A stretch of 50,592 nt of DNA from a virus. The notes below the pieces were generated by a model. That model was not told the DNA's origin and ran no database searches. It saw nothing but the letters and a program-made list of their open reading frames with translations. Each line of letters begins with the position of its first letter. The stretch's first letter is position 1. Location: positions 1-50,592 of the IMG/VR virus record IMGVR_UViG_3300020470_000016. One strand, 5' to 3'. Made by a program: the position numbers and the translations under genes. Positions 8,501 to 23,973 of the stretch are shown in pieces.

Positions 8501-9690
8501 ACACCTATAACGATGCTTCTGGTGCTGGTTACGCTGGTTCATTCAGTGTTGGTGCTGCAGCAAGTTCTGTTAGTGGACAGAAAGGTACAATTGTTGAAGT
8601 TGACAACACTTCTACAACATTCTTGATTGGTGATGCAATCGGATTCTCAACCACATTCGGTGATGACGAGTTGTATTACATCATCAACACAGTTACAAAC
8701 GTTTCGACTGCTGTAACTTACACAGATAACGCTGGATTGGGTGTTACATTCAACAACCGTGCTACTCTGACAATTTCGCCAGAGAAAGCAAGGGCAACAC
8801 CTGATACAAGAAACACAACGGGCGCTGGTTCGACAATAAATGCAAGAACAAGATTCTCGCAGGTACGTCTAACAGGTCACGACTTCTTGAGTGTTGGTTG
8901 CGGTAACAAGACCCAAACTAACTATCCAGATGTTGACGAAACCAATATCATCCAAGGTAACGAAACAAATACTCTTGGGCCTGGTAAGGTGTTCTTCGTA
9001 TCAACCGACCAAGGTGGTAACTTCCGAGTTGGTGAATTCTTCTCGGTTGACCAGTTAACTGGACGTGCAACCTTGGATGCTTCCGCTTTCAACCTGTCTG
9101 GTTTGACAGAATTGAGACTGGGTGCTATCGGTGGTCAGATTGGTGAGTCTATTAACGAGTTCTCCTCCGATGAATTCCTCGCAGGTAACTCTAACAGCGC
9201 TTGCCCAACTGAGTACGCAGTTAAAGGTTTCCTAACCCGTGGTAAGATGGGTGTCGGTGCGATGGTTCCTCCAGTTGGTACAACTGGTCAGAGACCTTCA
9301 GGCTCAGATCCTTCCTTCGTTGTTGGTGCTATGAGATATAACACCACAATCGGTTCTCTTGAGTACTACGATGGAGTAGGTTGGACTCAGCCAGGTAAGT
9401 TAACTTACAACCAGACAACAGCTAACACAAACGGTGAAGTCAACAACGTATACTTCATTGATACTACTGGCGGTCAGGTAACAATTACTCTACCCGCTTC
9501 ACCAAGTATCGGTGATACCATTTACTTCTACGACGTTGCTAAGACGTTCGATAGTAACCAACTCAACGTTGCTAGAAATGGTAAGGTCATACAGGGTGAC
9601 TCTTCGGACTTAACAGTTAGTGTAGAGGGTGCCGCCTTCACGCTCTGCTTCTCTGGAGACACATATGGTTGGAGAATCTTCTCCATCTAA
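5584..9690 (+). CDS. Tail fibre with carbohydrate-binding repeats and beta-helix-like segment
   Basis: The product is a 1368-aa fibre protein. The first 270 residues contain about five repeats of a W..Y..GD.V.Y.G..Y.A pattern (near residues 15, 65, 120, 182 and 240), typical of CBM5/12-like chitin- and polysaccharide-binding modules. Around residue 340 there is a VDSESGHDQNNG..P..AFKTIKKA segment, the entry motif of right-handed beta-helix or pectate-lyase-like phage proteins. Long Thr/Gly/Val beta-rich stretches follow. The last 100 residues end in a compact domain shared with the 152-aa protein upstream. An AGGAGA site lies 7 bases before the ATG. Likely function is host-surface binding. 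The pectate-lyase-like fold does not prove enzymatic activity. Confidence 0.85.
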   Translation: MAEFRLGRVKFNWTGEWQPSKSYLIDDLIKFGGNSYVAVTNHTSVATTADFYTTDLAKWNVHVEGIANKGEWVTNTYYRVNDIVKFGNVQYRVTTAHTSAGTFIDLSKCAEYVAGFKAEGEWSISTQYQAGDVVNYNGSSYVALTTSLAGNIPPNNVAIGTDIAGKQWQVLADGLAGAAVTYVDGTYYRGQLAQYGGNIYRHKLGITTNVAPLAIGDTNNPGVGIGASVWDLLVQGFKFTGGYVTSFDYHPGHVARWGSDSYVAIGNSFKGIQPNTGIGTQWEVLASGDSSAALTTKGDILTFNSGNVRIGIGSTGYALAVQGDGLPGYEVVGAQTRVYYVDSESGHDQNNGLAPNLAFKTIKKACDAARPTTPVTGCQYTASTGLATITAPGHGLQNTGTFVQLAGLNFECTSGGRIYGVLGFNYTQTTGIATVTAINIGAAPETSIGATVRLRDIAVQYTTGGQFDHQYVSCVTDGISVVGGGTTTATSATYNQATGDFVVTIPNHVLTTSDQVGFNTNAFTMKCARDNYATNHSYPRVTDPAHNTNLNITATTGDTITVNVGASPANTTFNAQFANDFGESNFNVTAVPSNNSVAVDVGIKTYGITYTSGGVIMAGITTTIFPSIASKSFFEVLSVPSTSTFTCNVGVSTMNHTYVDSGTLTDLTPCVLRLSASQFYEQLPITVPPYTSIVGHSLRGTQVLPAAGTSDDNTTPNNRATMFRLSDSTTIQAMAFKGMEGFKYDGNAPFVLDNTNIRTGIGTTAAGVFMALNPNSPINDKSPYVKDCTAFSDNATENGRWGGGGVGVLIDGGVHDEGARSMVFDAFTHVTSDGAGYVLDKNAIAEIVSCFTYYAKWGYYSGGGSRIRAVGGNNSYGEYGVISSGFSTVESIKTARLFGDMMTIQAATIAGTVAVGQTMNGETSTSKAWIVNDQRSADKLYFKYFPGYGATASAATGNVAIGTSPFVDGEVIYTYNDASGAGYAGSFSVGAAASSVSGQKGTIVEVDNTSTTFLIGDAIGFSTTFGDDELYYIINTVTNVSTAVTYTDNAGLGVTFNNRATLTISPEKARATPDTRNTTGAGSTINARTRFSQVRLTGHDFLSVGCGNKTQTNYPDVDETNIIQGNETNTLGPGKVFFVSTDQGGNFRVGEFFSVDQLTGRATLDASAFNLSGLTELRLGAIGGQIGESINEFSSDEFLAGNSNSACPTEYAVKGFLTRGKMGVGAMVPPVGTTGQRPSGSDPSFVVGAMRYNTTIGSLEYYDGVGWTQPGKLTYNQTTANTNGEVNNVYFIDTTGGQVTITLPASPSIGDTIYFYDVAKTFDSNQLNVARNGKVIQGDSSDLTVSVEGAAFTLCFSGDTYGWRIFSI

Positions 9691-9765: not shown

Positions 9766-10548
9766 ATGGCAACTTACGGAAGTTATAAAAAAATAGTCGC
9801 ATCGCAGATTCTCGATAACTCAATTCCTGATAGTGCGTTTGCAGATGGTGCTGGTCCAAAATACAACGTAAAATGGATCCGAGGTCCTATTGGTGGAACC
9901 ACTAGTGGTTGCTGCTGTTATTGGACTGTACCAACAGGTGTGAAGAGAGTTACATTTGATGTTTGGGGTGCAGGTGGAAACGGACATGGATTCTGTTCAT
10001 GGGACCGTTGCCATCACTACTTCGGTGCTGGTGGTGGATATTATTCTACTAAAACAATCGCTGTTCAAGAAGGTTGGAACTATACAATATGTGCAGGTGG
10101 TACTTATCCTTGTTGCTCTTATGAGTGTACAGGATGTAGAGGATGTGCATCTTATGTAAATGGATGTAACCTTTCAAACTTCTGTGCATGGGGTGGAAAT
10201 AGAGGATGTGCAAACACCTCTTGGGCTGAGATGTGTTTCTCCGATTGGAACTGTTGCGTAAGTCCTACTTTTAATGGTTCTGATTTCGCAATGGGTAACA
10301 TGAGACCTGCAGGTACAGGTCCATATAACTGTCACTGCTATCGTCATACATGGTGTGCTGGTAACGCTCCATTCCTCGCTGCAGGAACCCACGGTGGTCA
10401 CCTAGCAGAGTGTTGGAAACGTTGTGCATGTTGGACTGTTCCATATGCATCTGGCGGTCCTGGCGGTATGACTACATATTGTGGTAACTGGGACAACGGT
10501 ACTGGTGGTATCGGTGGTTCTGGTGTTATTAAGATTACATACGTTTAA
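9766..10548 (+). CDS. Gly/Cys-rich adhesin-like protein, copy 1
   Basis: This is the first of three tandem paralogues (260 aa). It contains about 24 cysteines, including GCCC near residue 48, ECTGCRGC near 118 and CHCY near 197. Glycine-rich turns follow a W-TVP-GV-K-x-x-F-x-x-W-GAGGNG motif, which resembles the glycine-rich domain of phage tip adhesins. The chain closes with YCGNWDNG and a strand ending VIKITYV. HHY, CHC and other His/Cys clusters could bind metal or form disulfides. There is no signal peptide. The position directly after the long fibre gene fits a fibre-tip adhesin. Function is inferred from context and composition. Confidence 0.85.
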   Translation: MATYGSYKKIVASQILDNSIPDSAFADGAGPKYNVKWIRGPIGGTTSGCCCYWTVPTGVKRVTFDVWGAGGNGHGFCSWDRCHHYFGAGGGYYSTKTIAVQEGWNYTICAGGTYPCCSYECTGCRGCASYVNGCNLSNFCAWGGNRGCANTSWAEMCFSDWNCCVSPTFNGSDFAMGNMRPAGTGPYNCHCYRHTWCAGNAPFLAAGTHGGHLAECWKRCACWTVPYASGGPGGMTTYCGNWDNGTGGIGGSGVIKITYV

Positions 10549-10565
10549 AGGGGACACTTAAAGAA

Positions 10566-11363
10566 ATGGCAAGTTATTCTTCTTATAAATCAGTTACTAC
10601 TGAACAAATAGCAGATGGTCTAGTAACCGAACAGATGGTGGTGCCTGGTGCAAGGAAGAACTATGGTATTAAATGGTTCCACGGTTCACCAAACCCAACT
10701 GTAAGCGGATGTTGTTGCTTATGGACTGTTCCTTCTGGAGTATCTAAACTTCATATTGAAGCTTGGGGTTCTGGAGGTAATGGACACGGAAAATGTTCTT
10801 GGGATAGATGTCATCACTACAAAGGTGCTGGTGGTGGACAGTATAACTCCAAGATGATTACAACTAGTGGAGGTTGTCAGTATACAATTTGTGCAGGTGG
10901 GGTATATCCCTGCTGTAGTTACGAATGTACAGGTTGTGAAGGATGTGCTTCATACGTAAATGGTTACAACCTAAGTAACTTCTGTGCTATCGGAGGTTCT
11001 AGAGGTTGTGCAAACACCAGTTGGGCAGAGACTTGCTACTCAACATATGATTGTTGCTTAGCGCCTGGAAACAATGGTGGAGACTTTGGTTGGCAGGGTC
11101 ACGCTGGAAGATTTGGTTCTGTACAGTGGTGGTTCGGTGTTGGTTTTTGTCATTGTCATCTACAGAATACGAAACCATCTACAGCTCCTATAGTAGGAAC
11201 TACTGTTGAGGTTTCAATTAACTTCTGCTGGACTCGACATGGTTGCTGGACTGTTCCGTATACGAACGGTGCTCAAGGTGCTCAAACTAGTTACTGTGGT
11301 AACTGGGACAATGGTTATGGTAATACAGGGGGACCTGGCTTAGTGAAAATTACATACTTCTAA
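10566..11363 (+). CDS. Gly/Cys-rich adhesin-like protein, copy 2
   Basis: The second tandem paralogue has 265 aa and about 22 cysteines. It keeps the GCCCLWTVPSGV, CSWDRCHHY, PCCSYECTGC, NLSNFC and YCGNWDNG blocks of copy 1. The N-terminal 35 residues and a central loop (about residues 180-220, with a WW..GVGFCHCH patch) differ from both neighbours. Conserved framework plus divergent loop is the pattern expected of receptor-binding proteins. It starts 17 bases after copy 1 and has no promoter motif of its own, so it is probably cotranscribed. Confidence 0.85.
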   Translation: MASYSSYKSVTTEQIADGLVTEQMVVPGARKNYGIKWFHGSPNPTVSGCCCLWTVPSGVSKLHIEAWGSGGNGHGKCSWDRCHHYKGAGGGQYNSKMITTSGGCQYTICAGGVYPCCSYECTGCEGCASYVNGYNLSNFCAIGGSRGCANTSWAETCYSTYDCCLAPGNNGGDFGWQGHAGRFGSVQWWFGVGFCHCHLQNTKPSTAPIVGTTVEVSINFCWTRHGCWTVPYTNGAQGAQTSYCGNWDNGYGNTGGPGLVKITYF

Positions 11364-11369
11364 TAAATA
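11362..11369 (+). promoter_or_regulatory. Late-promoter-like motif AATAAATA
   Basis: A NATAAATA motif overlaps the stop codon of copy 2 and lies 21 bases before the ATG of copy 3. This is a plausible distance for a T4-type late promoter. Confidence 0.6.
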
Positions 11370-11390
11370 ACACCAAGGAATTAGATCCAA

Positions 11391-12173
11391 ATGGCACAGT
11401 ATACCGATTATAAAAAGATTGATGGGGCTTCATTACCTTCAGGGGTAATTACAGATGCTAAAATCGATCCGTCAGCATTTAACTCTTGGAACATTAAGTG
11501 GATTTATGGTTCACCTAACCCAGTTTCGAGTGGATGCTGCTGTTTGTGGACTGTACCAAGTGGTGTCAGAAAGATAACTTTCGAGATCTGGGGTTCTGGC
11601 GGTAATGGACATGGTAAGTGTTCATGGGACCGTTGCCATCATTACAGAGGTGCTGGTGGTGGATATTATAATATGAAGACTATTGATACCGTTCCTGGCT
11701 GTCAGTATACAGTTTGTGCTGCTGGTGTATATCCATGTTGCTCTTATGAGTGTGTAGGATGTAATGGTTGTTCCTCATACGTTAATGGTCATAACTTAAG
11801 TAACTTCTGTGCTATTGGTGGTTACAGAGGAGAGGCTAATACCTCTTGGAACGAGGCATGTAACTCAACATTTACATGTTGTTTAGCGCCTGGAAATAAT
11901 GGTGGAGACTTCGGTATGGGTAACCATGCTGGAAACTTTGGTTGGCACGCTTCTGAGTGTCACTGCCATTGTGTTGGAACTCATCCAAGTTCTGCTCCGT
12001 TTATTGGAACTGATGCTCAACAAAACCTAACTACATGTTGGACAAGACATGGTTGTTGGACTGTTCCTTATGGTAACGGTGCTATGGGCGGTATGACTAC
12101 TTACTGTGGTAACTGGGATAACGGTTATGGAAATACTGGTGGTCCTGGCCTAGTTAAGATAACATACGTCTAA
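11391..12173 (+). CDS. Gly/Cys-rich adhesin-like protein, copy 3
   Basis: The third tandem paralogue has 260 aa and about 22 cysteines. It shares the GCCCLWTVPSGV, CSWDRCHHY, PCCSYEC and YCGNWDNGYGNTGGPGLVKITY blocks with copy 2, to which it looks closest at the C-terminus. One cysteine conserved in copies 1 and 2 is Glu here (RGEAN instead of RGCAN). A CHCHC-containing stretch occupies the variable central region. It has its own late-promoter-like motif and is followed by a terminator. The role is inferred as a tail-fibre adhesin variant. Confidence 0.85.
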   Translation: MAQYTDYKKIDGASLPSGVITDAKIDPSAFNSWNIKWIYGSPNPVSSGCCCLWTVPSGVRKITFEIWGSGGNGHGKCSWDRCHHYRGAGGGYYNMKTIDTVPGCQYTVCAAGVYPCCSYECVGCNGCSSYVNGHNLSNFCAIGGYRGEANTSWNEACNSTFTCCLAPGNNGGDFGMGNHAGNFGWHASECHCHCVGTHPSSAPFIGTDAQQNLTTCWTRHGCWTVPYGNGAMGGMTTYCGNWDNGYGNTGGPGLVKITYV

Positions 12174-13175: not shown

Positions 13176-13195
13176 AGGGGTCTGAAAAGACCCCT
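13176..13195 (+). terminator. Terminator-like hairpin
   Basis: AGGGGTCT and AGACCCCT form an 8-bp perfect stem around GAAA. The expected T-run is replaced by ATATACTATACT, so termination may be weak. It separates the tail module from the sugar island. Confidence 0.5.
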
Positions 13196-13220: not shown

Positions 13221-14378
13221 ATGAGATCTACAGCATTTTTTGTCAACGGTGGTGCAGGACGTATTATCTGTTCCATCCCTGCATTTGAAAAATATGCAGA
13301 AGCAAATCCTGACGATGACTTTATCATAGTCACAGAAGCAGGTACAGATTTTTTTAAAGGACATCCTACTCTACATAACAAGTGCTTTGATAATTGGCAC
13401 AAAGGATTGTTCGAAGAGAAACTTAAAGATAGAAATATTGTAAGTACAGAACCTTACAGAGTTTGGCATTACTACAATCAAGAATGTAGTCTTGCACAAG
13501 CATATGATATTCAAATTAATAAGTTAGAAGAACCAAGGGAACTGCCTGATCCTGAGATTGTTCTTAGTAAAATGGAAGTAGTTCAGGCACAAAATATCTT
13601 AGAAGAAATTAAGGGTGGTACTGGCAAAGCTAAAGTTGTAGTAATTCAACCATTTGGTAGGAGTGTTCAGACAGAAGGTGATTTTGTTGTTGATCCAGGC
13701 TCTAGAAGCATGAATATGGTCAACACAGTTGAGATCATCAATAATCTTAAGAAAGATTATTCCGTTGTTGTTATGAGTGAATTTCAATTTCCAGTAGAGG
13801 AAAATGAAGATCGTTCAAGACATAAAATCGCTCGCCCACAAATACAAGACATTCGTATTTGGGCTGGTGTTATTGAAGGTGCTGATCACTTTATCGGTTG
13901 TGATAGCGTTGGTCAACACTTAGCAAAAGCTTTAGATACTACTGCGACTGTAGTTCTTGGATCCACTTATCCAATTAATATTTCATATCCAGAGTTTAAT
14001 GGGTTTGATATTATTGATGTTGGCGCAGAAAACGGTAGGGTTTATGATCCTATTCGGTTAACTATGGACGATGAAAGAATGAGAGCCAATGATCAGGCTT
14101 GTGAAATGTCCAAAGAACAAGTTAAGCGTGTAATTGATTCTGCGAGAAAGAGGTTGGGTAAACCAACAACTTGTCCAAAGAAAACTCCAGAACAAGAACA
14201 ACAACAAATACAACAAATAAATCCAACACGTCCCCAAGTAAAGCCTGGTTCTGCACCTCAGATGCCTAGTTTACAACCACAGAAGTTGGATATTCCATCT
14301 AATGTAATAGGTGCAACTAAATCAAAACCCTCAAAGGGATTTAAGGATGAAGTTGAAAATTTGTTAAAGACTAAGTGA
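13221..14378 (+). CDS. GT9-like (heptosyltransferase-type) glycosyltransferase
   Basis: The product is 385 aa. The N-terminus has GGAGRIICSIPAFEKYAE (from residue 10), resembling the entry motif of family 9 glycosyltransferases (ADP-heptose:LPS heptosyltransferases). Around residues 220-250 it has ADHFIGCDSVGQHLAKAL followed by VVLGSTYP, matching the GT9 C-terminal nucleotide-sugar site (usually FIGNDSG..HLA.AL...LFGPT.P). The last 70 residues are a Gln/Pro-rich linker and a short Lys-rich tail not expected in GT9 enzymes. It heads the island, 9 bases before the carbamoyltransferase gene. Likely role is transfer of a sugar, possibly heptose-like, to an unknown acceptor. The donor is inferred. 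Confidence 0.65.
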   Translation: MRSTAFFVNGGAGRIICSIPAFEKYAEANPDDDFIIVTEAGTDFFKGHPTLHNKCFDNWHKGLFEEKLKDRNIVSTEPYRVWHYYNQECSLAQAYDIQINKLEEPRELPDPEIVLSKMEVVQAQNILEEIKGGTGKAKVVVIQPFGRSVQTEGDFVVDPGSRSMNMVNTVEIINNLKKDYSVVVMSEFQFPVEENEDRSRHKIARPQIQDIRIWAGVIEGADHFIGCDSVGQHLAKALDTTATVVLGSTYPINISYPEFNGFDIIDVGAENGRVYDPIRLTMDDERMRANDQACEMSKEQVKRVIDSARKRLGKPTTCPKKTPEQEQQQIQQINPTRPQVKPGSAPQMPSLQPQKLDIPSNVIGATKSKPSKGFKDEVENLLKTK

Positions 14379-14387
14379 GGTTAGATT

Positions 14388-16211
14388 ATGTCACAATGGA
14401 TTGCTGGTGTCACTAGAGGGCATAATGGCGGGGTATGTTTACTTAAAGATGGTGAGATAGTCTTTACTTTAGAAGAAGAAAGATTATCAAGACAGAAGTA
14501 TGATGGTGGTCCCTATGCCACCATGATGAAAATCAAAGAATATACTGATAGATTAGATCTTCTTGTTATTGCACATACTCAGGATCTCTCACAAGCAGGT
14601 AAAGTAGATTTTGCTGGGGATGATATCTATACGGGTTTAGCCCGAAAGATGAGGTTAATAGATAGAGATTATGATATGCGTGATGGTAAACACCATCATC
14701 AAGTTCTTGATCTTTCTCGTACTCATCATAAACTTCATGCTGCATGTGCATTTTATCGTTCTGGATTTGAAGAAGCAGTTGCATTAATTGTTGATGGTGC
14801 TGGTACTTTTATTCCAATGAGGATAGAAGGTACTGGAACTGCTGATGATGTTCATATAACATGGGAATTAGAAACTATCTTTAAGTGCAGTTATCCTGCT
14901 GGATTTAAAACATTATACAAACATCAAGGTGGTAGAGGTCCTTGGGGTACTTGTCGTTTGCCTGAATGGTCTAGTGAAGGTGAAGGTGAAGAAGGAACTC
15001 ATGAATTTATTCTTGATGAAAATGCAGGTATTGTTAAAGCATATGAAGCAGTAACTCAATATTGTGGATGGCAACCAATTGAAGCAGGTAAGACTATGGG
15101 ATTATTTCCCTATGGTAAACCAAACGATAAGATTCCACCTATCTTTACAAACCATAATGGAAACTCTCCTTGGTGGGCATGTAATAGAGATGTTATTGTT
15201 CCAACTTATCCTAATGGAGCCCTTGTAAATGAAGGTAGATTTCCAGAACTAACAACACCACCAGATTTCAATGGTGATGCCACTGAACTTGAGAATCGTA
15301 GAGATATGGCATATGCGATTCAAACAGAATCTCAAGAAATGGTATTGAAACTAATTCGAAAATCAGTTGAATTGAGTGGAACAAAGAATGTAGTTCTTTC
15401 TGGTGGATATGCATTAAATTGTGTTGCAAATTATTGGTATCTTGATCAACTTAAGGATGAAGGAATCAATCTGTACGTAGAACCCGTCTCTAATGACGCT
15501 GGCACCGCAATGGGCGCTGCTTTAATGGCATATTATAAGATGTCTGAGAAGAACGAGATTAGGGGTCATGTGAAGGACTTATACGATGGTCCAGAATATA
15601 CCTATACGAAAGATGAGATATTAAAAATTGCTGATAAGTATAATGCTTCGAGAGTTTTTGAGGCTACAAATAAAGATGTTGTTGATCTAATCACCGATAA
15701 AAATATAGTTGCTTTATGGCAAGGAAGGTCTGAGAATGGACCTCGTGCATTAGGTAATCGTTCTATTATGTACGATCCTCGTGATAAAGATGGAAAAGAT
15801 CATGTCAATACAGTAAAACGTCGTGAGTATTTCAGACCATTTGCAGGTTCTATTTTAAAAGAACATGTACATGAGTGGTTTGATCTTCGTGGTATGGATG
15901 AAACTCCATTTATGATGTATGCTGTTGAGTGTCAAGAAGGTATTCAAGAGAAGATACCTGCAATTATTCATATAGATGGTACATGTAGAATACAAACCGT
16001 AACAGAGGAACAAAATGAAACGTACTACCAAATCATCAGGGAATTCTTTGAACAGACTGGTTGCCCTATCATCTTTAATACTTCCTTTAATTTGGGCGGA
16101 GAGCCTTTGGTTGAAACTGTGGACGACGGGATCAGAACGTTAGCTAACAGTTTAATTGAATATATGTATTTGCCTGAATATGGCTTGATGGTTGAAGTAA
16201 AAAATGATTAA
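14388..16211 (+). CDS. NodU/CmcH-family carbamoyltransferase
   Basis: This 607-aa protein matches the full length of O-carbamoyltransferases. It opens with GVTRGHNGGVCLLKDGEIVF and LEEERLSRQKYDGG, the family's Kae1-like N-terminal start, and carries SRTHHKLHAACAFY near residue 108 and DAGTAMGAALMAYYK near 370. The C-terminal domain has EYFRPFAGSIL and FNTSFNLGGEPLVET, typical of NodU C-terminal domains that make or transfer the carbamoyl group from carbamoyl phosphate. Such genes occur in T4-like cyanophages. In this island it may carbamoylate a sugar or metabolite. The substrate is unknown. A GAGG site lies about 9 bases before the ATG. Confidence 0.9.
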   Translation: MSQWIAGVTRGHNGGVCLLKDGEIVFTLEEERLSRQKYDGGPYATMMKIKEYTDRLDLLVIAHTQDLSQAGKVDFAGDDIYTGLARKMRLIDRDYDMRDGKHHHQVLDLSRTHHKLHAACAFYRSGFEEAVALIVDGAGTFIPMRIEGTGTADDVHITWELETIFKCSYPAGFKTLYKHQGGRGPWGTCRLPEWSSEGEGEEGTHEFILDENAGIVKAYEAVTQYCGWQPIEAGKTMGLFPYGKPNDKIPPIFTNHNGNSPWWACNRDVIVPTYPNGALVNEGRFPELTTPPDFNGDATELENRRDMAYAIQTESQEMVLKLIRKSVELSGTKNVVLSGGYALNCVANYWYLDQLKDEGINLYVEPVSNDAGTAMGAALMAYYKMSEKNEIRGHVKDLYDGPEYTYTKDEILKIADKYNASRVFEATNKDVVDLITDKNIVALWQGRSENGPRALGNRSIMYDPRDKDGKDHVNTVKRREYFRPFAGSILKEHVHEWFDLRGMDETPFMMYAVECQEGIQEKIPAIIHIDGTCRIQTVTEEQNETYYQIIREFFEQTGCPIIFNTSFNLGGEPLVETVDDGIRTLANSLIEYMYLPEYGLMVEVKND

Positions 16212-16231
16212 ACTATGGAGGATTTGGAAGT

Positions 16232-16354
16232 ATGCATTGGGCAGTTTTGCAGATGAAAAAACCAAAAGATACGACAATCACATTGTATTGGTCCGTAGTA
16301 TTATCTTTATTACTTACTTTACCACCAATTGTTTTATTGTTGCTGGTGTTTTGA
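16232..16354 (+). CDS. Small membrane peptide (40 aa)
   Basis: An open frame of 40 codons starts at ATG 16232, ten bases after a GGAGG site, and fills the gap between the carbamoyltransferase and halogenase genes. Residues 1-15 are polar with a KKPKD patch. Residues 17-40 form one hydrophobic helix rich in Leu and Val, ending in VLLLLVF. It is a plausible single-pass inner-membrane peptide with its positive N-terminus inside. I cannot assign a family. The good ribosome-binding site and close packing support it as a real gene. Confidence 0.6.
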   Translation: MHWAVLQMKKPKDTTITLYWSVVLSLLLTLPPIVLLLLVF

Positions 16355-16363
16355 GGCATTGGA

Positions 16364-17863
16364 ATGATTAAAAAAGTTGAGAAGATTGCAATAATTGGTG
16401 GAGGTACTTCTGCTTGGTTAACTGCTGCCTATCTTAAAAAGAACATAATAGACTATAAAGAAATTGTTGTTATTGATAAAGAAAATTCAAATCCTGTTGG
16501 AGTTGGAGAAGCAACTATTTTAAACTTCAAGACCTTTATGGATGATTGTGGTTTTAATATTACAGATTGGTTTTCAAAAATTGGTTCTGTATTTAAAGGT
16601 GGTATATTATTTCCTAACTGGGGTACTGGAGAAGTTTGGCATCCATTTGCTTTTCCAGATTATAGTTATAATGGCAATCCTACTACTTTAGTTGGCTGTT
16701 GGACTAAGTTTCAAGAAAAAACATTTAAAGAAAATGGACTCATACATTATGATGTTTGTAAACATCAAATGAGAGTAGATCCAGATAACTTATCCATATA
16801 TGCTTTTCATATAGATGCATTAAATTTGGTTGAATTTATAAAGGATCAAATTATTGGTAATGATGTGCATTTTATACAATCTGAGGTTGTTGGGATTCAG
16901 TATGATACTGATGAGTATGTTTCCTTTTTAGACTTAAAGGATGGTTCAAAAATAGAAGCGGATCTATATGTAGATTGTACGGGATTTAATGGATTAATAT
17001 ATGATAGCGATAAGGTTGATTTGAGTGATAGGTTGTATTGTGATACTGCTGTTGCTACTCAAGTTCCATATGAAAATCAAAATGAAGAATTAAATCCATA
17101 TGTTAATTGTCCAGCAGTAGAGAGTGGATGGATATGGGAGATACCCTTACAAACAAGAATTGGATCTGGACTTGTATTCAACAGGAATATAACTTCTCCA
17201 GATGATGCTAAAGTAGAATTATCTAATCATTGGAATGGAAGGGTAAGTCCTAGTGATATGAAAGTTCTCGATTGGACTCCATATTATAATAAAAATTTTT
17301 GGAAGAAGAATGTAGTAAATATTGGATTATCTGCAGGGTTTATTGAACCTCTGGAGAGTACAGGCATTGCATTAATATGTGCAGGTATTTCTGGTATGTT
17401 TGATAGAATACAAACGATGGAATATACGGATAATGATATAAACTTATACAATGCAGAGATGACTTGTAAGTTTGAGGATTGTATTGATTTTGTTAATATG
17501 CACTACTCATATTCTGAGGCTAAAGGTAAGTTTTGGGATTGGATTAGAGAGGTTTATAAACCATCAGAAAAATTACTTTATTTTAAAGAACAACTTGAAA
17601 ATAATCCTAAGTTTCAACTGAGTGGGTTCACAGGTAAAGATATTTTTTCTGGTAATAATTGGATAGCATGGATGATCCAATTAGGTAATAAAGTAATTAA
17701 AAGAGATGATAATATTCCTGATGAAGTTTCTTATTTGATGATGTCAGATTTTGTTAAAAATGAAATGAATAAGTACGATTATTTGCCTAACGTTAATGTG
17801 TATTGTAAGTACTTCAATACTTTAAGTCATTTAAATGAACAGTCTATAAATCCATATCGATGA
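16364..17863 (+). CDS. Flavin-dependent tryptophan halogenase family protein
   Basis: The product is 499 aa and carries the family's diagnostic residues. The FAD-binding GGGTSAW is at residues 12-18, VGVGEAT at 45-51, and FKGG with the presumed catalytic Lys78 (PrnA Lys79) follows. The halogenase WxWxIP motif is present as WIWEIP at 256-261, and EPLESTG at 329-335 holds the Glu matching PrnA Glu346. All key residues are intact, so an active FADH2-dependent halogenase is plausible. The substrate may be free or protein-bound tryptophan, or another aromatic. Halogenase-like genes are known in cyanophages without assigned function. The next gene overlaps by ATGA, so coupled expression with the DUF6445 pair is likely. 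Flavin reductase would come from the host. Confidence 0.9.
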   Translation: MIKKVEKIAIIGGGTSAWLTAAYLKKNIIDYKEIVVIDKENSNPVGVGEATILNFKTFMDDCGFNITDWFSKIGSVFKGGILFPNWGTGEVWHPFAFPDYSYNGNPTTLVGCWTKFQEKTFKENGLIHYDVCKHQMRVDPDNLSIYAFHIDALNLVEFIKDQIIGNDVHFIQSEVVGIQYDTDEYVSFLDLKDGSKIEADLYVDCTGFNGLIYDSDKVDLSDRLYCDTAVATQVPYENQNEELNPYVNCPAVESGWIWEIPLQTRIGSGLVFNRNITSPDDAKVELSNHWNGRVSPSDMKVLDWTPYYNKNFWKKNVVNIGLSAGFIEPLESTGIALICAGISGMFDRIQTMEYTDNDINLYNAEMTCKFEDCIDFVNMHYSYSEAKGKFWDWIREVYKPSEKLLYFKEQLENNPKFQLSGFTGKDIFSGNNWIAWMIQLGNKVIKRDDNIPDEVSYLMMSDFVKNEMNKYDYLPNVNVYCKYFNTLSHLNEQSINPYR

Positions 17864-18597
17864 AAAGACCTAATTTTATAGATGAAGAAGAAGTCTTTGC
17901 TGTTAATCCTGATGTGGAAGCAAATGTCCATGTTATAGGACCAGAAGGGATTAAAGTTGTAGTATTGGATAATTTTTATAAGAATCCTGATGCGGTAAGA
18001 GATGTTGCTTTAACTATTCCTCCTACGGAAAATGTTAGGATTATGGCTGGAACGCCTGGAACGAGAGTGTTTGGTCATTATAATTTTGAATGTTTATATC
18101 CAATATTAAGTCATGTATTCAGGAATGTTTATACAGAAGAAACAAAGGATGTTCCTGATGATGTAATGAGAGAGGCTATTGTTAATTGTCCTTTCTGCGT
18201 TAACATTAATCAATCTGTTAATTTACCTCCCGTTACTCCACATATTGACGATAGACAGTTTATGATGTATGCTGCAGGGATTTATTTAAATCTCCCAGAG
18301 GAATGTACGGGTGGTACATCTTTCTATTCATTGAATGGTAAACAATCAATAAGCAATGAAGATATAGGTGATTGGTTAAAAAGTAAAGGTAAAGAGAAGT
18401 TCTACGATCATTATATAACTGACAGTGTTGAGGAATGGGAACTTTTAAATATTGCTACTATGAAGTATAATAGATTAATAATGTATCCAGGCAATGTGGC
18501 TCATACTGCTTATATGAAACCAGATGATTTTACTGGTGATGTGTATAGGTTAATTCAGATGATGTTTATTCCTCTTAATCCAGAAGCAGATGCATAA
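17860..18597 (+). CDS. DUF6445-like protein with 2-oxoglutarate oxygenase-type residues, copy 1
   Basis: The product is 245 aa and begins FIDEEEVFAVNP, followed by VVLDNFYKNPDAVRD near residue 35, the opening typical of DUF6445-like proteins. Further on, the residues fit a jelly-roll Fe(II)/2-oxoglutarate oxygenase: His128 and Asp130 in PHIDD, GGTSFY at 151-156, His215 in GNVAHTAY, and Arg230 fourteen or so residues later. The start overlaps the halogenase stop by 4 bases and the end overlaps copy 2 by 8 bases. DUF6445 genes also occur near tryptophan halogenases in some proteobacteria, suggesting joint action on one substrate. Enzymatic activity is an inference. Confidence 0.75.
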   Translation: MKRPNFIDEEEVFAVNPDVEANVHVIGPEGIKVVVLDNFYKNPDAVRDVALTIPPTENVRIMAGTPGTRVFGHYNFECLYPILSHVFRNVYTEETKDVPDDVMREAIVNCPFCVNINQSVNLPPVTPHIDDRQFMMYAAGIYLNLPEECTGGTSFYSLNGKQSISNEDIGDWLKSKGKEKFYDHYITDSVEEWELLNIATMKYNRLIMYPGNVAHTAYMKPDDFTGDVYRLIQMMFIPLNPEADA

Positions 18598-19384
18598 AAC
18601 TTTTATTGACGAACAAGAAGTATTTGCTTTAAATGATAATTTGGAAGCAAAGGTTTTTACAGTAGGTCCCGAAAAGGCTAGGATAACCTATGTTGATAAC
18701 TTCTATAAAAATCCAGATGCAGTAAGAGATCTTGCTATATCTATTCCACCAACTCGTAATCCAATGATTATGGCTGGAGCGCCTGGATCAAGGGTAGATG
18801 TTTTTTATAATTTACAACATATGACACCCTTCTTTGGATATATCTTTAGGAGTGTTTATGGAGATATTAATGAGGAAGTCACTGATGCCAGAATACAAGA
18901 TGCAATAAAAGGAATAACTTTCTGTGTTAATGTTACCCAATCCGAAGACTTAAAACCTATCGTTCCCCATGTAGATGATACTTCTACAGATCTATTTGCT
19001 GCAACAGTTTATTTGAATAAACCAGAAGAATGTATGGGTGGTACTTCATTTTATACATTAGATGGTAAACAGACGGGAAATGCAGATGATATTGATGCTT
19101 GGTTAAAGTCGAAGGGTAAATATCCGTACTACGATCATTACATTACTGATAGTGAAGAAGAGTGGGATATGATACATCTGGCAGAAATGAAGTATAATAG
19201 GTTTGTAATATATCCTGCAAACATCTTCCATACTGGTTATATCAAACCAGGCATGTTTACTGGAGATGTACATAGGCTTGTCCAAATGTTCTTTGTTTTC
19301 CTTGGTGGAAAGGGAACTTTTATGCCTATAAATCACAATGAATACAAGAAATGGTTAGACGAAAATGAAAACGGTATTTGTTAA
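18590..19384 (+). CDS. DUF6445-like protein with 2-oxoglutarate oxygenase-type residues, copy 2
   Basis: This 264-aa protein is a tandem paralogue of the preceding gene: FIDEQEVFALN, VDNFYKNPDAVRD, GGTSFYTLDGKQ and DHYITDS are shared. The presumed iron and 2-oxoglutarate residues are kept (His127, Asp129, His214, Arg229). It carries about 25 extra C-terminal residues ending in NENGIC. It overlaps copy 1 by 8 bases and the nucleotidyltransferase by 20 bases, so it is part of the same translationally coupled run. Whether the two copies form a heterodimer or act on different positions cannot be told. Confidence 0.75.
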   Translation: MHKTFIDEQEVFALNDNLEAKVFTVGPEKARITYVDNFYKNPDAVRDLAISIPPTRNPMIMAGAPGSRVDVFYNLQHMTPFFGYIFRSVYGDINEEVTDARIQDAIKGITFCVNVTQSEDLKPIVPHVDDTSTDLFAATVYLNKPEECMGGTSFYTLDGKQTGNADDIDAWLKSKGKYPYYDHYITDSEEEWDMIHLAEMKYNRFVIYPANIFHTGYIKPGMFTGDVHRLVQMFFVFLGGKGTFMPINHNEYKKWLDENENGIC

Positions 19385-19796
19385 TGGAACCTTTGATATT
19401 CTTCATCCAGGCCACATGCAACTCTTCAAGGTTGCAAGGTCTTTAGGTGATAGAGTTATCTGTGCAACTGATAGTGATCAGAAGATAAGAGAAGATAAAC
19501 CAGATACGGGAAAACCGATCAATAATCTTCCTTACAGGATTACTATGCTTGAATCTATCAAATACATAGATACAGTCTTGTGGTTTAATACCATGCAAGA
19601 GTTATCTGATTTGATTCAGTTATACCGTCCAGATATTCTTTTGCTTGGAGATGATTGGAGAAATGGTGTTGTAATTGGTGCAGAGTTTGCTCAAGAAGTT
19701 AGATTCTTTCCAAGAATAGAAATGTATTCTAGTAGTAAAGTTATTAGTCAAATAAAAAGTCTTGTTGATCCAGTAGATCCTTCCACCTATGAGTAA
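19365..19796 (+). CDS. RfaE2-like nucleotidyltransferase (HldE C-domain type)
   Basis: This 143-aa protein opens NGTFDILHPGH, the HxGH nucleotidyltransferase motif (His14, His17). It continues with DSDQKIREDKPDTGKPINNLPYR and the ending LLLGDDWRNGVVIGAEFA...YSSSKVI. Length and order match the ADP-heptose synthase nucleotidyltransferase domain of HldE, which adenylylates heptose-1-phosphate. Glycerol-3-phosphate cytidylyltransferase is the main alternative. The RfaE1-like kinase follows directly with an 8-base overlap. That pairing, and an HldD-like epimerase downstream, favours a heptose-type sugar nucleotide over glycerol. Confidence 0.75.
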   Translation: MKTVFVNGTFDILHPGHMQLFKVARSLGDRVICATDSDQKIREDKPDTGKPINNLPYRITMLESIKYIDTVLWFNTMQELSDLIQLYRPDILLLGDDWRNGVVIGAEFAQEVRFFPRIEMYSSSKVISQIKSLVDPVDPSTYE

Positions 19797-20628
19797 ATTT
19801 TCAATTCTAGTAATAGGCGATTCATGTGATGATGAATATATTTTTGGTACTGTACATCGTATCAGTCCAGAAGTTCCTGTACCTGTATTGAAATATGAGT
19901 TTGTTGAAAAGTCTAAGGGTATGGCAGCAAATGTGGAGAGGAATGTTGCTGCTTTTGATGTTGCAACAAATCTAATAACGCAGAAAGAACAGATTGTAAA
20001 AAGTAGATTTATTGATAGAGGTAGTGGCCAACAGTTAATGAGGATGGATGAAGAGAAAGTTTCCAGTCCTTGTACTGCCGCTCAAGTAAGAATTGCATTT
20101 ATTCATGCAAATTATGATGCATTAATAATATCTGATTATGATAAGGGTTTTTTAGATAGACATGCTCTTGGAGATTTATGTGAGACCTTTCAAGGTCCTA
20201 TATTCATAGACACTAAGAAAACTCAATTATTCCAAAAGGAGAATGTATTCTGGAAGATTAATAAAAAAGAATTTGACCTTTTAGATAGGGATTATTTGCC
20301 AGAATTAACACATCTTGTTGTCACTTTAGGTGCAGATGGTGTAAAATGGAGAGATATACATTACCCTTCAGAAAAAGTTGAGGTTCATGATGTTTGTGGT
20401 GCAGGGGATACTTTCCTTGCTACTATGGCTTATGAATATCTTAACACTAAGGGTGATATGGAAAAGGCTATTGATCTTGCAAATAGAGCAGCAGCCATCG
20501 CAGTCCAACACTCTGGGACTTATACTCTAACGGAGGATGACATTGAGGTATTGTATAGACATAGACGGGACAATATGCTCCCCAACCTTGGGAAGGGATT
20601 ACCAGTCGGCAAAACCCTGGCAGGGTAG
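19789..20628 (+). CDS. PfkB-family sugar kinase, RfaE1-like
   Basis: The product is 279 aa. It begins ILVIGDSCDDEYIFGTVHRISPEVPVPVLK cut into its features: GDSCDDEYIFG followed by RISPEVPVPV, which closely follows the start of heptose-7-phosphate kinase (HldE N-domain). Later come GMAANVERNV (residues 44-53), ISDYDKG (114-120) and the catalytic GAGD at 204-207. It would phosphorylate a sugar phosphate at C1 with ATP. The kinase fold appears complete by about residue 255. The final 30 residues are encoded in the 92-base overlap with the HAD gene and look like a read-through tail. Substrate is inferred from the nucleotidyltransferase next to it. Confidence 0.75.
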   Translation: MSKFSILVIGDSCDDEYIFGTVHRISPEVPVPVLKYEFVEKSKGMAANVERNVAAFDVATNLITQKEQIVKSRFIDRGSGQQLMRMDEEKVSSPCTAAQVRIAFIHANYDALIISDYDKGFLDRHALGDLCETFQGPIFIDTKKTQLFQKENVFWKINKKEFDLLDRDYLPELTHLVVTLGADGVKWRDIHYPSEKVEVHDVCGAGDTFLATMAYEYLNTKGDMEKAIDLANRAAAIAVQHSGTYTLTEDDIEVLYRHRRDNMLPNLGKGLPVGKTLAG

Positions 20629-20887
20629 GATTAAGGTAATAAATAAGTTGTATGATGAAGGAAATTATATTATTTACTTCACCGCTCGTGCAATGGGTAG
20701 GTTCTCAGAAGAGGAACATCAAATTGCACAAGCAAAGGCTTCAGCAGTTCTATTCGAACTAACTCAAGAGCAACTTAAAGAATGGGGTTGTAAGTACCAT
20801 GAATTAATCATGGGTAAACCTCATGCTGATTACTTTATTGACGATAAAGCTTGGCCTGACACGGTATTTTTTAATGACAAACGTTAA
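20537..20887 (+). CDS. Small HAD-superfamily phosphatase (capsule-biosynthesis type)
   Basis: This 116-aa protein starts RYCIDIDGTIC, the DxDGT nucleophile motif of HAD phosphatases (Asp8 and Asp10). It continues with NYIIYFTARAMGR, the second Ser/Thr motif, and ends in KPHADYFIDDKAW with the acidic metal motif. This architecture matches small HAD enzymes in capsule and sugar-nucleotide clusters. In the heptose pathway a HAD enzyme (GmhB) removes the C7 phosphate between kinase and nucleotidyltransferase steps, so this one could take that role. It overlaps the kinase by 92 bases, an unusually long overlap. The assignment to the pathway is inferred. Confidence 0.75.
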   Translation: MTLRYCIDIDGTICSPTLGRDYQSAKPWQGRIKVINKLYDEGNYIIYFTARAMGRFSEEEHQIAQAKASAVLFELTQEQLKEWGCKYHELIMGKPHADYFIDDKAWPDTVFFNDKR

Positions 20888-21326
20888 AGAATACTTAGAA
20901 TTTATTGGTATGGATAACGTACCTCATGGTAGTTCTAATCTTTTAGAACACTCTGAGAGAGTATCTAAACTACTCTTAAAGTATGGTAGATCTAAGGATT
21001 TGCAGAATGCAGGCCTTTTTCATTCAATACATGGAACAGAGTTTCAGCAATACCAATTAAATACAAGGAAGATAGATGAAGACCATATTAAATCTCTAAT
21101 TGGAGAATATGCGTATAGTCTTGTAACTACATTCTGTACATTGCCAGATAGAACTAATACAATTCTATATGGAAAGGGACTTAAAGATCCCGAAAAAACT
21201 GATCTAAGGTGGTTAGAGTACTGCAATTTAATAGATCAATATCCTACTCCAAAAGATGTTGTTAAATGTGTCTTGAGGGAATTTAAAATGGTACTGCGGA
21301 GAGAGTATGACTTTAAACACAGTTAA
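20874..21326 (+). CDS. DUF6817-like HD-type protein
   Basis: The product is 150 aa. I chose the ATG at 20874, which overlaps the HAD gene by 14 bases, because the longer alternative start at 20823 adds only a low-quality extension. The protein has EHSERV (His26) and GLFHSIHGTEF (His50, His53), resembling DUF6817, a small HD-domain-like family. The His residues could bind a divalent metal. The family is uncharacterised, so its contribution to the island is unknown. It overlaps the cupin gene by 20 bases. Confidence 0.65.
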   Translation: MTNVKEYLEFIGMDNVPHGSSNLLEHSERVSKLLLKYGRSKDLQNAGLFHSIHGTEFQQYQLNTRKIDEDHIKSLIGEYAYSLVTTFCTLPDRTNTILYGKGLKDPEKTDLRWLEYCNLIDQYPTPKDVVKCVLREFKMVLRREYDFKHS

Positions 21327-21663
21327 GTTTGTATCTAAAGGTTGGGGATTCGAAAAGTGGATTGCCAATAATAAACAGTATTGTGGTAAGTTACTCTTTA
21401 TCGCAAAAGATAAGAGATGTTCATGGCATTATCATAAATTAAAGAGAGAAACATTTTATATTCAGTCTGGAAGAATTAAACTTTGGTATGGTAAGACAGA
21501 CGATAGAGATTCAGCAAACACTACAATACTAGAACCTGGCGACAATTTTCATGTCCCAAGAGGACTAAGACATCAGATGTTAGCTATAGAGGATACAGAA
21601 CTATTTGAATTCTCTACACAACATTTTGATGAAGATAGTAATAGAATTATTCCTGGCGACTAA
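21307..21663 (+). CDS. Cupin protein, sugar-isomerase-like
   Basis: This 118-aa protein is a single-domain cupin. The metal-binding HYH pair (His41, His43), Glu48 in KRETFY, PGDNFHVPRG at 77-86 and His89 match the two cupin motifs. The start GWGFEKW resembles the opening of phosphomannose-isomerase-like cupins found in nucleotide-sugar gene clusters. It could be a sugar isomerase, epimerase or dehydratase helper, or simply a binding protein. It ends on TAATG, sharing one base with the next start. Confidence 0.75.
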   Translation: MTLNTVKFVSKGWGFEKWIANNKQYCGKLLFIAKDKRCSWHYHKLKRETFYIQSGRIKLWYGKTDDRDSANTTILEPGDNFHVPRGLRHQMLAIEDTELFEFSTQHFDEDSNRIIPGD

Positions 21664-22286
21664 TGGTTGGACAACTCCTTAAAGATCATATAGGTACTTA
21701 CAAAGTACTTACTGATGAAGAATCTGATTCCGTTATAAAATGGTTTCATGATAATGAAGATCTTCATATGGAAGGAATGGTTTATGCTTCAACAGAAGAT
21801 GGAAAGGTATCTGAAGTACAAACTACTAGGGATAGAAAGAAAACCACACAGGCATATCCAGATCCAGATGATCCAATATCACATCTATTAAGTCATGCTA
21901 TAATGAATGCCTATCAGGCATATAAAGATGATCCAGAACATTTATATCCTCTTGGGCAACCTTTAGTATTACAAGATTTATCTGTTAGACGTTATCATAA
22001 AGGTGATGGATATTTTAAAAAACATGCTGATCAATCACATGGTCCAACTTCTACTCGTCAATATGGAGTTTTAATCTATTTGAATGATGTTGAGGAAGGT
22101 GGAGAAACAAATTTTGATGAACTATTTTGCAAAATAAAACCAGAAAAGGGTAAGTTACTTATATTTCCTTGTAATTTTCTTTATAACCATTGTGGAGAAG
22201 TTCCTATCTCTGGAGATAAGTATGCTGTAACTTGTTTCATCTGTTATCCATTGTGGCTTCCTGAAGATAAACCAAAAAGTTTATGA
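21663..22286 (+). CDS. 2-oxoglutarate/Fe(II) oxygenase, prolyl 4-hydroxylase type
   Basis: The product is 207 aa. The catalytic set of prolyl 4-hydroxylase-like oxygenases is present: His121 and Asp123 in KKHADQS, GGETNF at 146-151, His176 in LYNHCGE, and Lys186 for 2-oxoglutarate in PISGDKYAVTCF. Such genes are common in T4-like cyanophages. Targets may be proteins or small molecules, and none can be read from the sequence. It is the last + strand gene of the island and its last 6 bases overlap, tail to tail, with the minus-strand epimerase gene. Confidence 0.85.
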   Translation: MVGQLLKDHIGTYKVLTDEESDSVIKWFHDNEDLHMEGMVYASTEDGKVSEVQTTRDRKKTTQAYPDPDDPISHLLSHAIMNAYQAYKDDPEHLYPLGQPLVLQDLSVRRYHKGDGYFKKHADQSHGPTSTRQYGVLIYLNDVEEGGETNFDELFCKIKPEKGKLLIFPCNFLYNHCGEVPISGDKYAVTCFICYPLWLPEDKPKSL

Positions 22287-23090
22287 TAGATATTCTTCTA
22301 CGGACTTGTAATCATACTTGTACCATGAAGGATCAGCACAAGTATAGTCTTGATACTTACCAATAAGATGTTCGGGGAATGGAATCATTTCGATTTCAGC
22401 CCCTTCTTTTTCGGCAACTAGTTCTGCAACTTTTAAGAACGATATTGGTTTTCCAGTTCCAACATCATAGATGCCACTTGGAGCATTATTATTGAGGACT
22501 ACCTTTACTATATCCTCTACACAAACAAAATCTCTTAAAAATTTATCTGATCCTTTGAATACCCTTATCTTTCCTGTTTCACGAGCTTGTTGTGTAAATT
22601 TTGATATAGGACTTGCTTGATCTACTTTAAGTTTATCGTCTTCACCTGAACCATATACATTGAAATATCTAAATCCTTGAATACTCTTACTGAATCTATC
22701 AATATGATCTAGTACATAATAATCTATTATTAATTTAGATATAGCATATTGATTTAAGGGGTTTATAAGTTTTCTGTTTTTCTTTTGATTTCCATATACA
22801 GAAGCAGATGATGCATACTTTACAGGAATATCATATTCAATTGCTTTGCCAAAAAGATGGGCAGTAAAATCTTGATTGTAATGTGCAATAGACATCCAAT
22901 TTCTTTCTACTGTGGATGACATTGCTCCATTATGAATGATCATGGATATTTTTTCCCATTCATCAAACTTGGCAAGGAACTTCCAACAGTCGTCTTTATC
23001 GATAGAAATTACTGGTAATCTCATTTCTTCTTCAATGACACGAAGAAAATGAGATCCAATAAAACCTTTATAACCAGTGAGGAGTATCAT
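22281..23090 (-). CDS. NAD-dependent epimerase, HldD-like (ADP-heptose 6-epimerase type)
   Basis: This 269-aa extended short-chain dehydrogenase has the NAD-binding TGYKGFIGS at residues 5-13, HNGAMSSTVE at 53-62, YASSASVYG at 92-100, and the catalytic pair Tyr115-Lys119. It also has GFRYFNVYG, FKGSDKFLRDF, and IPFPEHLIGKYQDYTCAD near the C-terminus. This last stretch and HNGAMSST are HldD-like rather than general epimerase features. HldD converts ADP-D-glycero- to ADP-L-glycero-manno-heptose. It is shorter than the usual 310 aa. It is the only gene on this strand and would be transcribed toward the island. Confidence 0.8.
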   Translation of the reverse strand: MILLTGYKGFIGSHFLRVIEEEMRLPVISIDKDDCWKFLAKFDEWEKISMIIHNGAMSSTVERNWMSIAHYNQDFTAHLFGKAIEYDIPVKYASSASVYGNQKKNRKLINPLNQYAISKLIIDYYVLDHIDRFSKSIQGFRYFNVYGSGEDDKLKVDQASPISKFTQQARETGKIRVFKGSDKFLRDFVCVEDIVKVVLNNNAPSGIYDVGTGKPISFLKVAELVAEKEGAEIEMIPFPEHLIGKYQDYTCADPSWYKYDYKSVEEYLS

Positions 23091-23151: not shown

Positions 23152-23973
23152 ATGGCGAAACCTTCTAGCAGAGAAGAATTGAAAGAATACTGCCTGAGAA
23201 AGTTAGGTAAGCCTGTTCTGGAAATTAACGTAGACGACGATCAGATCGAAGATCTGATTGACGAAGGAATTCAGTACTTTCACGAAAGACATTCTGAAGG
23301 TATAGAAAGAGTATACCTTAAGCATAAGATCTCTGAAGTAGATCTTGAACTTGCTAAAACTGGTGTTGCTTCAACTAGTACTGCAACAAGTACTTATGGG
23401 GGACCCAATTCAGTGGCATGGGAAGAAGGTGCTGGTTATCTACCACTACCAGATCATGTCCTAAGTGTAAATAAAGTATTTAAAGTTGACTCCACATCTA
23501 TATCTAGTGGACTTTTCAACATTAAATATCAGTTGTTCCTGAATGATTTATATTACTATGGTGCAATTGATCTATTAAATTATGCTATGGTTAAAACTTA
23601 TCTGGAGGACTTAGATTTTTTAATAAATCCAGAAGTTCAAATAAGGTTTAACGTTAAGAATAGAAGAATGTATTTGGATTGGGATTGGCAGGAAGTTAGT
23701 TCTAATCACTATGTTTTGATTGATTGTTACAGGGTTTTAGATCCAGAGAGTAACACTGCTGTCTATAATGATTTTTGGTTAAAGAGATATGTCACTGCTC
23801 TTATTAAGAAACAGTGGGGACAAAACCTAACGAAGTTCCAAGGGGTAAAACTTCCAGGCGGTTTAGAATTGAATGGTAGACAGACTTTTGACGATGCCGT
23901 AATGGAAATTGAGGCATTAGAAGAGAAGATGATGGAAGAGTATGCAATGCCCCCATTAGACATGATAGGATAA
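23152..23973 (+). CDS. 13: Neck protein gp13 (head completion)
   Basis: This 273-aa protein is the first gene of the neck-terminase block 13-14-15-16-17. It starts MAKPSSREELKEYCLRKLG and continues ...NVDDDQIEDLIDEGIQYF, the hallmark of T4-like gp13 in cyanophages. T4 gp13 is 309 aa. It acts with gp14 to seal the DNA-filled head and accept the tail. The downstream gene starts at its stop codon, consistent with tight coupling. Confidence 0.85.
   Translation: MAKPSSREELKEYCLRKLGKPVLEINVDDDQIEDLIDEGIQYFHERHSEGIERVYLKHKISEVDLELAKTGVASTSTATSTYGGPNSVAWEEGAGYLPLPDHVLSVNKVFKVDSTSISSGLFNIKYQLFLNDLYYYGAIDLLNYAMVKTYLEDLDFLINPEVQIRFNVKNRRMYLDWDWQEVSSNHYVLIDCYRVLDPESNTAVYNDFWLKRYVTALIKKQWGQNLTKFQGVKLPGGLELNGRQTFDDAVMEIEALEEKMMEEYAMPPLDMIG

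Follow-up and report, generated by a model that had tools for sequence, protein, structure and literature searches.

The window analysed here is the whole of a 50.6-kb viral contig (IMG/VR record IMGVR_UViG_3300020470_000016; 50,592 nucleotides), a fragment of a T4-like cyanophage. An island at positions 13221-23090 of the window encodes a cassette of sugar enzymes that probably produces a nucleotide-activated heptose, with a small metal cupin apparently serving as the isomerase. The route to ADP-D,D-heptose comprises four steps, catalyzed by an isomerase, a kinase, a phosphatase and a nucleotidyltransferase. The core of the cassette consists of four genes, three of which are assigned to these steps, leaving the cupin for the isomerase step. 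Its sequence and structural model make the cupin the strongest contender for the isomerase that seemed to be lacking, and no other gene of the island tells us as much.

A first-pass annotation of the island had proposed a phage-encoded nucleotide-heptose pathway in which the isomerase GmhA was not seen. The pathway is well supported. GmhA is indeed absent, also from nine complete relatives, but the pathway is probably complete, as a D-lyxose-isomerase-like cupin stands in its place and had been overlooked. In the open-access literature we found no paper tying a cupin to sedoheptulose-7-phosphate isomerization. What this analysis adds is the role proposed for the cupin and, with it, a complete pathway, all enzyme activities being predictions.

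The cupin as a candidate isomerase

The metal cupin (21307..21663, plus strand; T4-GC 307, phrog_7851) is identified by its AlphaFold2 model, Foldseek matches, active-site residues and synteny. The model reaches a predicted local distance difference test (pLDDT) score of 96. In a Foldseek search of 350,542 PDB chains, ranks 1 to 6 are D-lyxose isomerases, with 7nzp, 2y0o and 7nzo at E-values of 5e-9 to 9e-9, while the Escherichia coli sugar isomerase 3kmh ranks ninth and the phosphomannose isomerase 7zvy thirty-fifth. A profile hidden Markov model of the cupin also detects 2y0o, 7nzo, L-ribose isomerase and type II phosphomannose-isomerase domains. The match to Pfam PF07385 scores 18.9 bits, below the gathering score of 20.8. 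D-lyxose-type cupin ketol-isomerases convert 2-ketoses into manno-type aldoses and back, and GmhA catalyzes the same type of reaction.

The active site is shared as well. Alignment of the cupin with D-lyxose isomerases reveals the common motifs N..YC.K, C..H.H, K.ETF and E.S. In the Thermofilum D-lyxose isomerase (TsLI), sugar and metal are contacted by K62, H75, H77, K86, E88, H143, E156 and D163 (PMC8378251). All eight align in order with K28, H41, H43, K46, E48, H89, E101 and D108 of the cupin. Among 56 cupins, the His-His-Glu-His metal site is nearly invariant (H41 in 55; H43, E48 and H89 in all). The residues matching the substrate contacts K62, K86, E156 and D163 are likewise conserved: K28, K46 and E101 occur in 56/56 and D108 in 53/56. 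The phage cupins share with D-lyxose/D-mannose isomerases and cupin phosphomannose isomerases the fold, the metal site and every active-site contact described in print. However, at 118 residues they are shorter than the D-lyxose/D-mannose isomerases, are only about 23% identical to them, and have heptose phosphate as their predicted substrate.

The public name of this family, 'cysteine dioxygenase' (phrog_7851), was rejected because the closest folds are sugar isomerases. Another name, 'phosphoheptose isomerase' for the phosphatase of the HAD family (phrog_1238), was rejected because the motifs of that protein are those of HAD enzymes, as are the capsule phosphatases that it matches. Both annotations look wrong, and RefSeq entries for cyanophages have taken over these misleading names.

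No GmhA-type isomerase was found to compete with the cupin. PF13580 (SIS/GmhA) has no match in 12 cyanophage records, nine of them complete genomes, and TIGR00441 (GmhA) has none in 13 records. In 34 further virus contigs no SIS/GmhA match lies above the cut-off, the single sub-threshold hit (15 bits) being in the record of locus L108. These whole-record searches led us to reject a GmhA concealed elsewhere in the phage. The cupin gene is single-copy in every one of the nine complete cyanophage genomes and in a 231-kb contig.

The other predicted heptose enzymes

The first-pass annotation had recognized RfaE2-, RfaE1-, HAD-, HldD- and GT9-like genes in the island. All five are present where it had placed them, and the resemblances are far from chance. 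It had described the first four as neighbours; they do all lie in the island, but they are not strictly contiguous, with a DUF6817 gene, the cupin and a 2-oxoglutarate (2OG)-Fe(II) oxygenase between HAD and HldD.

The RfaE2/HldE-C-like nucleotidyltransferase (19365..19796, plus strand; T4-GC 304) matches TIGR02199 with 91 bits (E = 8e-26) and phrog_7878 at 8e-46. The runner-up function is glycerol-3-phosphate cytidylyltransferase (8e-19), and the HxGH motif is invariant across the family. The RfaE1/HldE-N-like PfkB kinase (19789..20628, plus strand; T4-GC 305) matches TIGR02198 with 151 bits (E = 4e-44), followed by ribokinase at 2e-12. Its top PDB match is heptose-7-phosphate kinase 4e84 (6e-19), and its GAGD motif is invariant across the RfaE1-like family. 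The HldD-like ADP-heptose 6-epimerase (22281..23090, minus strand; T4-GC 308) matches TIGR02197 with 196 bits (E = 7e-58), with galE as the runner-up (8e-13). Its top PDB match is E. coli HldD 1eq2 (1e-37), and its invariant Y115, K119 and K155 align with the catalytic Y140, K144 and K178 of that enzyme. The nucleotidyltransferase, the kinase and the epimerase thus each match a heptose family many orders of magnitude better than any other function, although below the curated cut-offs.

The phosphatase (20537..20887, plus strand; T4-GC 306) overlaps the kinase gene by 92 nucleotides. The GmhB-like role suggested for it at first is plausible, but the protein belongs to the EcbF-BcbF capsule phosphatase family of HAD enzymes (TIGR01689, 5e-6) and not to GmhB. 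It also matches 9iqw, a solved 'capsule biosynthesis protein', at 1e-11. Its catalytic residues D8, D10, T49, K94 and D103 are invariant, and D102 is almost invariant.

Conservation of the cassette

Orthologs of the cassette are found in P-SSM2 as T4-GC 302-308, which encode the GT9-like protein, a carbamoyltransferase, RfaE2, kinase, HAD, cupin and, on the reverse strand, HldD. S-CAM1, S-CAM3, S-SSM7 and Sf-FS3 follow the P-SSM2 plan with insertions. A second arrangement occurs in P-TIM68, S-SM2, S-T4 and Sf-CH8, where RfaE2, kinase, HAD and cupin lie in a different sugar island and HldD is present in P-TIM68 and S-SM2 only.

Scans of viral contigs recovered 32 kinase loci. Relatives of the cupin numbered at least 555, and the 80 best loci were retained. 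Partners were counted in the 72 loci in which the cupin is flanked by 4 kb or more in both directions. They are RfaE2 (67 loci), kinase (67), HAD (68) and HldD (47), in several gene orders. These counts define the core as a tetrad of RfaE2, kinase, HAD and cupin, with HldD as an optional addition. The loci are mutually related, so the counts are not independent, and the variety of gene orders is the better argument. The cassette is widespread and not peculiar to this phage.

In several loci without HldD (L119, L126, L074, L105 and L051), the cupin gene is followed at a short distance by one for a protein resembling dTDP-glucose-4,6-dehydratase. The activated sugar may thus be the same in these loci but tailored in another way. 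Locus L051 belongs to a contig of a Thaumarchaeota metagenome-assembled genome (MAG), and carries the HAD-cupin-kinase-RfaE2 set together with glycosyltransferases and epimerases; the cupin route may therefore exist in archaea.

An independent and distant version of the cassette is found on two contigs, L054 (335 kb) and L055 (153 kb), filed under a Neomarinimicrobiota MAG. They carry T4-like tail genes, with gp15 adjoining the cassette, which makes them very probably phage; they seem to be jumbo-phage contigs placed in the wrong bin. Their genes include a fused HldE, HldD, a 2OG oxygenase and a cupin that shares about 35-38% of its residues with that of the window, as well as a GmhB-like phosphatase (NF006506, 4e-39) that was seen only here. 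Some 11 kb from the heptose genes there is a homolog of the GT9-like protein. There is no SIS hit on either contig, the two SIS hits of the MAG being on other contigs. In this lineage the other steps are clear, and the cupin is again the sole isomerase candidate in the locus.

Relation to known systems

The cassette resembles the canonical ADP-heptose pathway in its clustered RfaE1-, RfaE2- and HldD-like enzymes and HAD phosphatase, and in its predicted product. It differs in having a cupin instead of GmhA, an EcbF-BcbF-type HAD instead of GmhB, and RfaE1 and RfaE2 as separate proteins. The hosts differ too, being reported to lack heptose in their lipopolysaccharide (LPS). The first-pass annotation had noted this for marine Synechococcus, and the literature does describe cyanobacterial LPS as being without heptose and 3-deoxy-D-manno-oct-2-ulosonic acid (PMC4390846).

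Individual genes of the cassette have been noticed before. T4-GCs 304, 305, 307 and 308 were reported to co-occur and were called LPS genes, possibly functional and possibly stuffer (Sullivan et al., 2010; PMC3037559). The genes of P-SSM2, S-SSM7 and S-SM2 among T4-GC 302-308 are the same orthologs, to which no pathway or function was assigned in 2010. Heptose genes are also listed in the genome announcement of cyanophage SynMITS9220M01 (PMC7378029). As relayed by PMC11461863 and PMC11573728, Tang et al. (2024; Science 385:678) found viral heptose enzymes to be active and to make ADP-heptose, the phosphatase being reportedly absent in viruses. Both that study, as so relayed, and ours concern heptose enzymes in viruses, but the cassette described here includes a phosphatase, of the HAD family in the window and GmhB-like in L054, and a predicted cupin isomerase.

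Candidate enzymes of transfer and carbamoylation

The GT9-fold glycosyltransferase-like protein (13221..14378, plus strand; T4-GC 302, phrog_8954) is a candidate heptosyltransferase. The gene had been placed at the head of the island as GT9-type; its sequence supports this assignment only weakly (PF01075, E = 0.037), but its fold does so clearly. A sequence search of the PDB gave nothing useful for this protein. Its AlphaFold2 model (pLDDT 82, with a disordered C-terminal tail) has as top Foldseek matches in the PDB the GT9 protein 3tov (9e-9), TibC 4rap (3e-8), WaaC 2h1h (8e-8) and WaaF 1psw (4e-7). An hhalign comparison with eight cellular GT9 sequences, from which the phage homolog L159 was left out, gave E = 7e-11. 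The protein shares the overall fold of WaaC, WaaF and TibC, and its C-terminal D-S-x-G-x-H resembles the GT9 motif. However, it is only about 11-15% identical to them. TibC itself is an enzyme of protein heptosylation (PMC4358343).

The adjacent Nol/NodU-type O-carbamoyltransferase (14388..16211, plus strand; T4-GC 303; PF16861 at 6e-58, PF02543 at 2e-27) is a candidate heptose carbamoyltransferase. This neighbor is kept in P-SSM2, S-SSM7, S-CAM1, S-CAM3 and Sf-FS3. In the LPS core of Pseudomonas, a 7-O-carbamoyl heptose is attributed to the carbamoyltransferase WapO (PMC8005017).

Proposed pathway and alternative explanations

In the proposed pathway, the cupin would convert sedoheptulose-7-phosphate into D-glycero-D-manno-heptose-7-phosphate, doing the job of GmhA with an unrelated metal-cupin fold. 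The transaldolase gene talC is present in 10/10 cyanophages, so sedoheptulose-7-phosphate is plausibly abundant, and the phage enzyme may raise its supply. The PfkB kinase would then form heptose-1,7-bisphosphate, the EcbF-type HAD would strip the 7-phosphate, and the RfaE2-type enzyme would turn heptose-1-phosphate into ADP-heptose, ADP being the nucleotide that we infer. Finally, HldD would invert C6 to give nucleotide-activated L-glycero-D-manno-heptose. We consider these five steps, with the cupin as the isomerase, to be probable. The GT9-fold protein would subsequently transfer the heptose, and the NodU-type enzyme would O-carbamoylate it, presumably in that order.

If true, this would give the cyanophage 'LPS genes' reported in 2010 a definite route and a product that can be tested for, and heptose synthesis would have a second kind of enzyme for its first committed step. 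Searches for heptose-making organisms or viruses based on GmhA would then miss every genome that uses the cupin. Cyanophage talC would be tied to a possible sink for sedoheptulose-7-phosphate. In addition, a sugar absent from the host is predicted, so its acceptor could be traced by mass spectrometry.

Several observations weigh against this scheme. Other metal cupins, including KdgF, CapF, oxalate decarboxylase and quercetinase, likewise score well against the cupin by fold. The position of the catalytic Asp in the N-terminal G-D motif of GT9 enzymes, kept as G-D in the eight cellular proteins, is Arg14 in 37/37 phage GT9-like proteins, which may use another base or have another function. The GT9-like gene is present in 38/42 loci with HldD and in 0/25 without it, but independent contrasts (four contrasts, two concordant, none discordant) give no significant association. 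The pattern was therefore rejected as proof of coupling, as it is not significant once relatedness is counted. Lastly, a perfect hairpin with a 6-bp stem (GGGGTC-TGAAAA-GACCCC; 13177-13194), a possible terminator, stands directly before the island and marks it off from its neighbor on that side, which makes late expression conjectural.

The acceptor could well be a virion component, though we place this slightly on the doubtful side of even; the tail fibers encoded next to the cassette would be the first candidates. A virion acceptor is favored by the position of the cassette in a fiber module, between fiber-like genes on one side and a neck gene at 23152 on the other. The jumbo-phage version likewise adjoins virion genes. 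The first-pass annotation had suggested a modified envelope, a glycosylated virion or DNA, or a signaling sugar as possible end uses. An alternative that is compatible with the pathway holds that the heptose is added to host LPS or the outer surface during infection, to mask receptors or exclude superinfection. The genes still go by the annotation 'LPS genes', and the LPS-acting GT9 enzymes WaaC and WaaF match the GT9-like protein about as well as TibC does. The other location of the genes in P-TIM68, S-SM2 and S-T4 also favors a surface polysaccharide. In these phages and in Sf-CH8 the core enzymes belong to sugar islands, and in three of the four, hli genes and glycosyltransferases are close by. 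A host-surface role is a real possibility short of probable, and the virion is slightly preferred. The scenario in full, in which marine T4-like phages evolved or acquired a cupin replacement for GmhA, assembled a complete pathway and put carbamoylated heptose on their own tail fibers in heptose-less hosts, is unlikely to be right in every part.

Two rivals concern the pathway itself. The first keeps the same nucleotide-heptose pathway and assigns step 1 to a host isomerase, either GmhA or a promiscuous phosphosugar isomerase, with a later role for the cupin, such as acting on the sugar after its activation or transfer. RmlC-type cupins do modify heptose nucleotides in Campylobacter. Furthermore, four of the 72 loci (L047, L048, L050 and L128) have close relatives of the cupin with no RfaE2, kinase, HAD or other heptose genes nearby, which makes another use possible and adds to the evidence against the scheme. 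However, the HxH..E..H metal site conserved in the cupin is, to our knowledge, missing from RmlC-type epimerases, and the closest folds and residues are those of ketol-isomerases. The cupin also stays with RfaE2, kinase and HAD whether HldD or the 4,6-dehydratase-like gene follows, as expected of an enzyme of an early step. On the host side, Synechococcus elongatus, in the control list, has no TIGR00441 match. We regard a host isomerase as improbable.

According to the second rival, the set has been adapted to a different sugar, such as a pentose, a hexose or glycerol phosphate, and its product is no heptose. D-lyxose isomerases do use pentoses. The kinase, RfaE2 and HldD scores all fall below the curated NCBIfam equivalog cut-offs (TIGR02198, 345 bits; TIGR02199, 181.5 bits; TIGR02197, 274.6 bits), which allows for a shifted substrate and counts against the heptose pathway. 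So does the structural affinity of the nucleotidyltransferase. The first-pass annotation had regarded best homology to unrelated families as the result that would speak against it; by profiles the kinase and the nucleotidyltransferase both rank heptose first, but the closest solved structures to the latter are glycerol-3-phosphate cytidylyltransferases. Against a different sugar, each of three enzymes, taken on its own, has a heptose family far ahead of any other, and the HldE, HldD and GmhB-like proteins of the jumbo-phage version reach higher scores. A retooled set deserves as little credence as a host isomerase. Non-functional 'stuffer' DNA or decaying host genes, a possibility raised by Sullivan et al. 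(2010; PMC3037559), is very hard to reconcile with open frames and intact catalytic residues in diverse phages and several gene orders.

Accessory genes and surroundings of the island

The right half of the contig is 76-78% identical in DNA to Synechococcus phages S-SSM6a/S-SSM7 and to Sf-FS3. T4-like structural genes on the contig include a gp13-like neck protein, terminase, sheath, portal and major head protein. A tail fiber gene occupies positions 5584-9690, and three tandem phrog_4205 paralogs (9766-12173), the third of which is rich in Gly and Cys, lie between it and the island. These paralogs are possible fiber-tip adhesins or acceptors. The late-promoter motif TATAAATA is not above chance in its overall count in the sequence; four of its six copies touch intergenic DNA, which makes up 4.5% of the sequence, and this is only a hint.

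Within the island, an open reading frame of 40 codons (16232-16354) between the carbamoyltransferase and halogenase genes reads as a single-span membrane peptide. The flavin-dependent (tryptophan) halogenase (16364..17863, plus strand; PF04820, 2e-89) is an accessory gene absent from the cassette loci of P-SSM2, S-CAM1, S-CAM3 and Sf-FS3. It looks intact, with GxGxxG and GWIWEIP motifs, and a residue of a virion protein is a possible substrate. A DUF6817/HD-like protein (20823..21326, plus strand; PF20680, 3e-15) is encoded between HAD and cupin, overlapping both, and has no match in other cassette loci. The 2OG-Fe(II) oxygenase of the prolyl-4-hydroxylase type (21663..22286, plus strand; phrog_61, 3e-33) is a frequent accessory that occurs in many cassette loci. 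Two tandem DUF6445 paralogs are found at 17860-19384; their relatives in S-SSM7 and Sf-FS3 lie beside HldD on the minus strand and are named 'minor coat protein' or 2OG dioxygenase.

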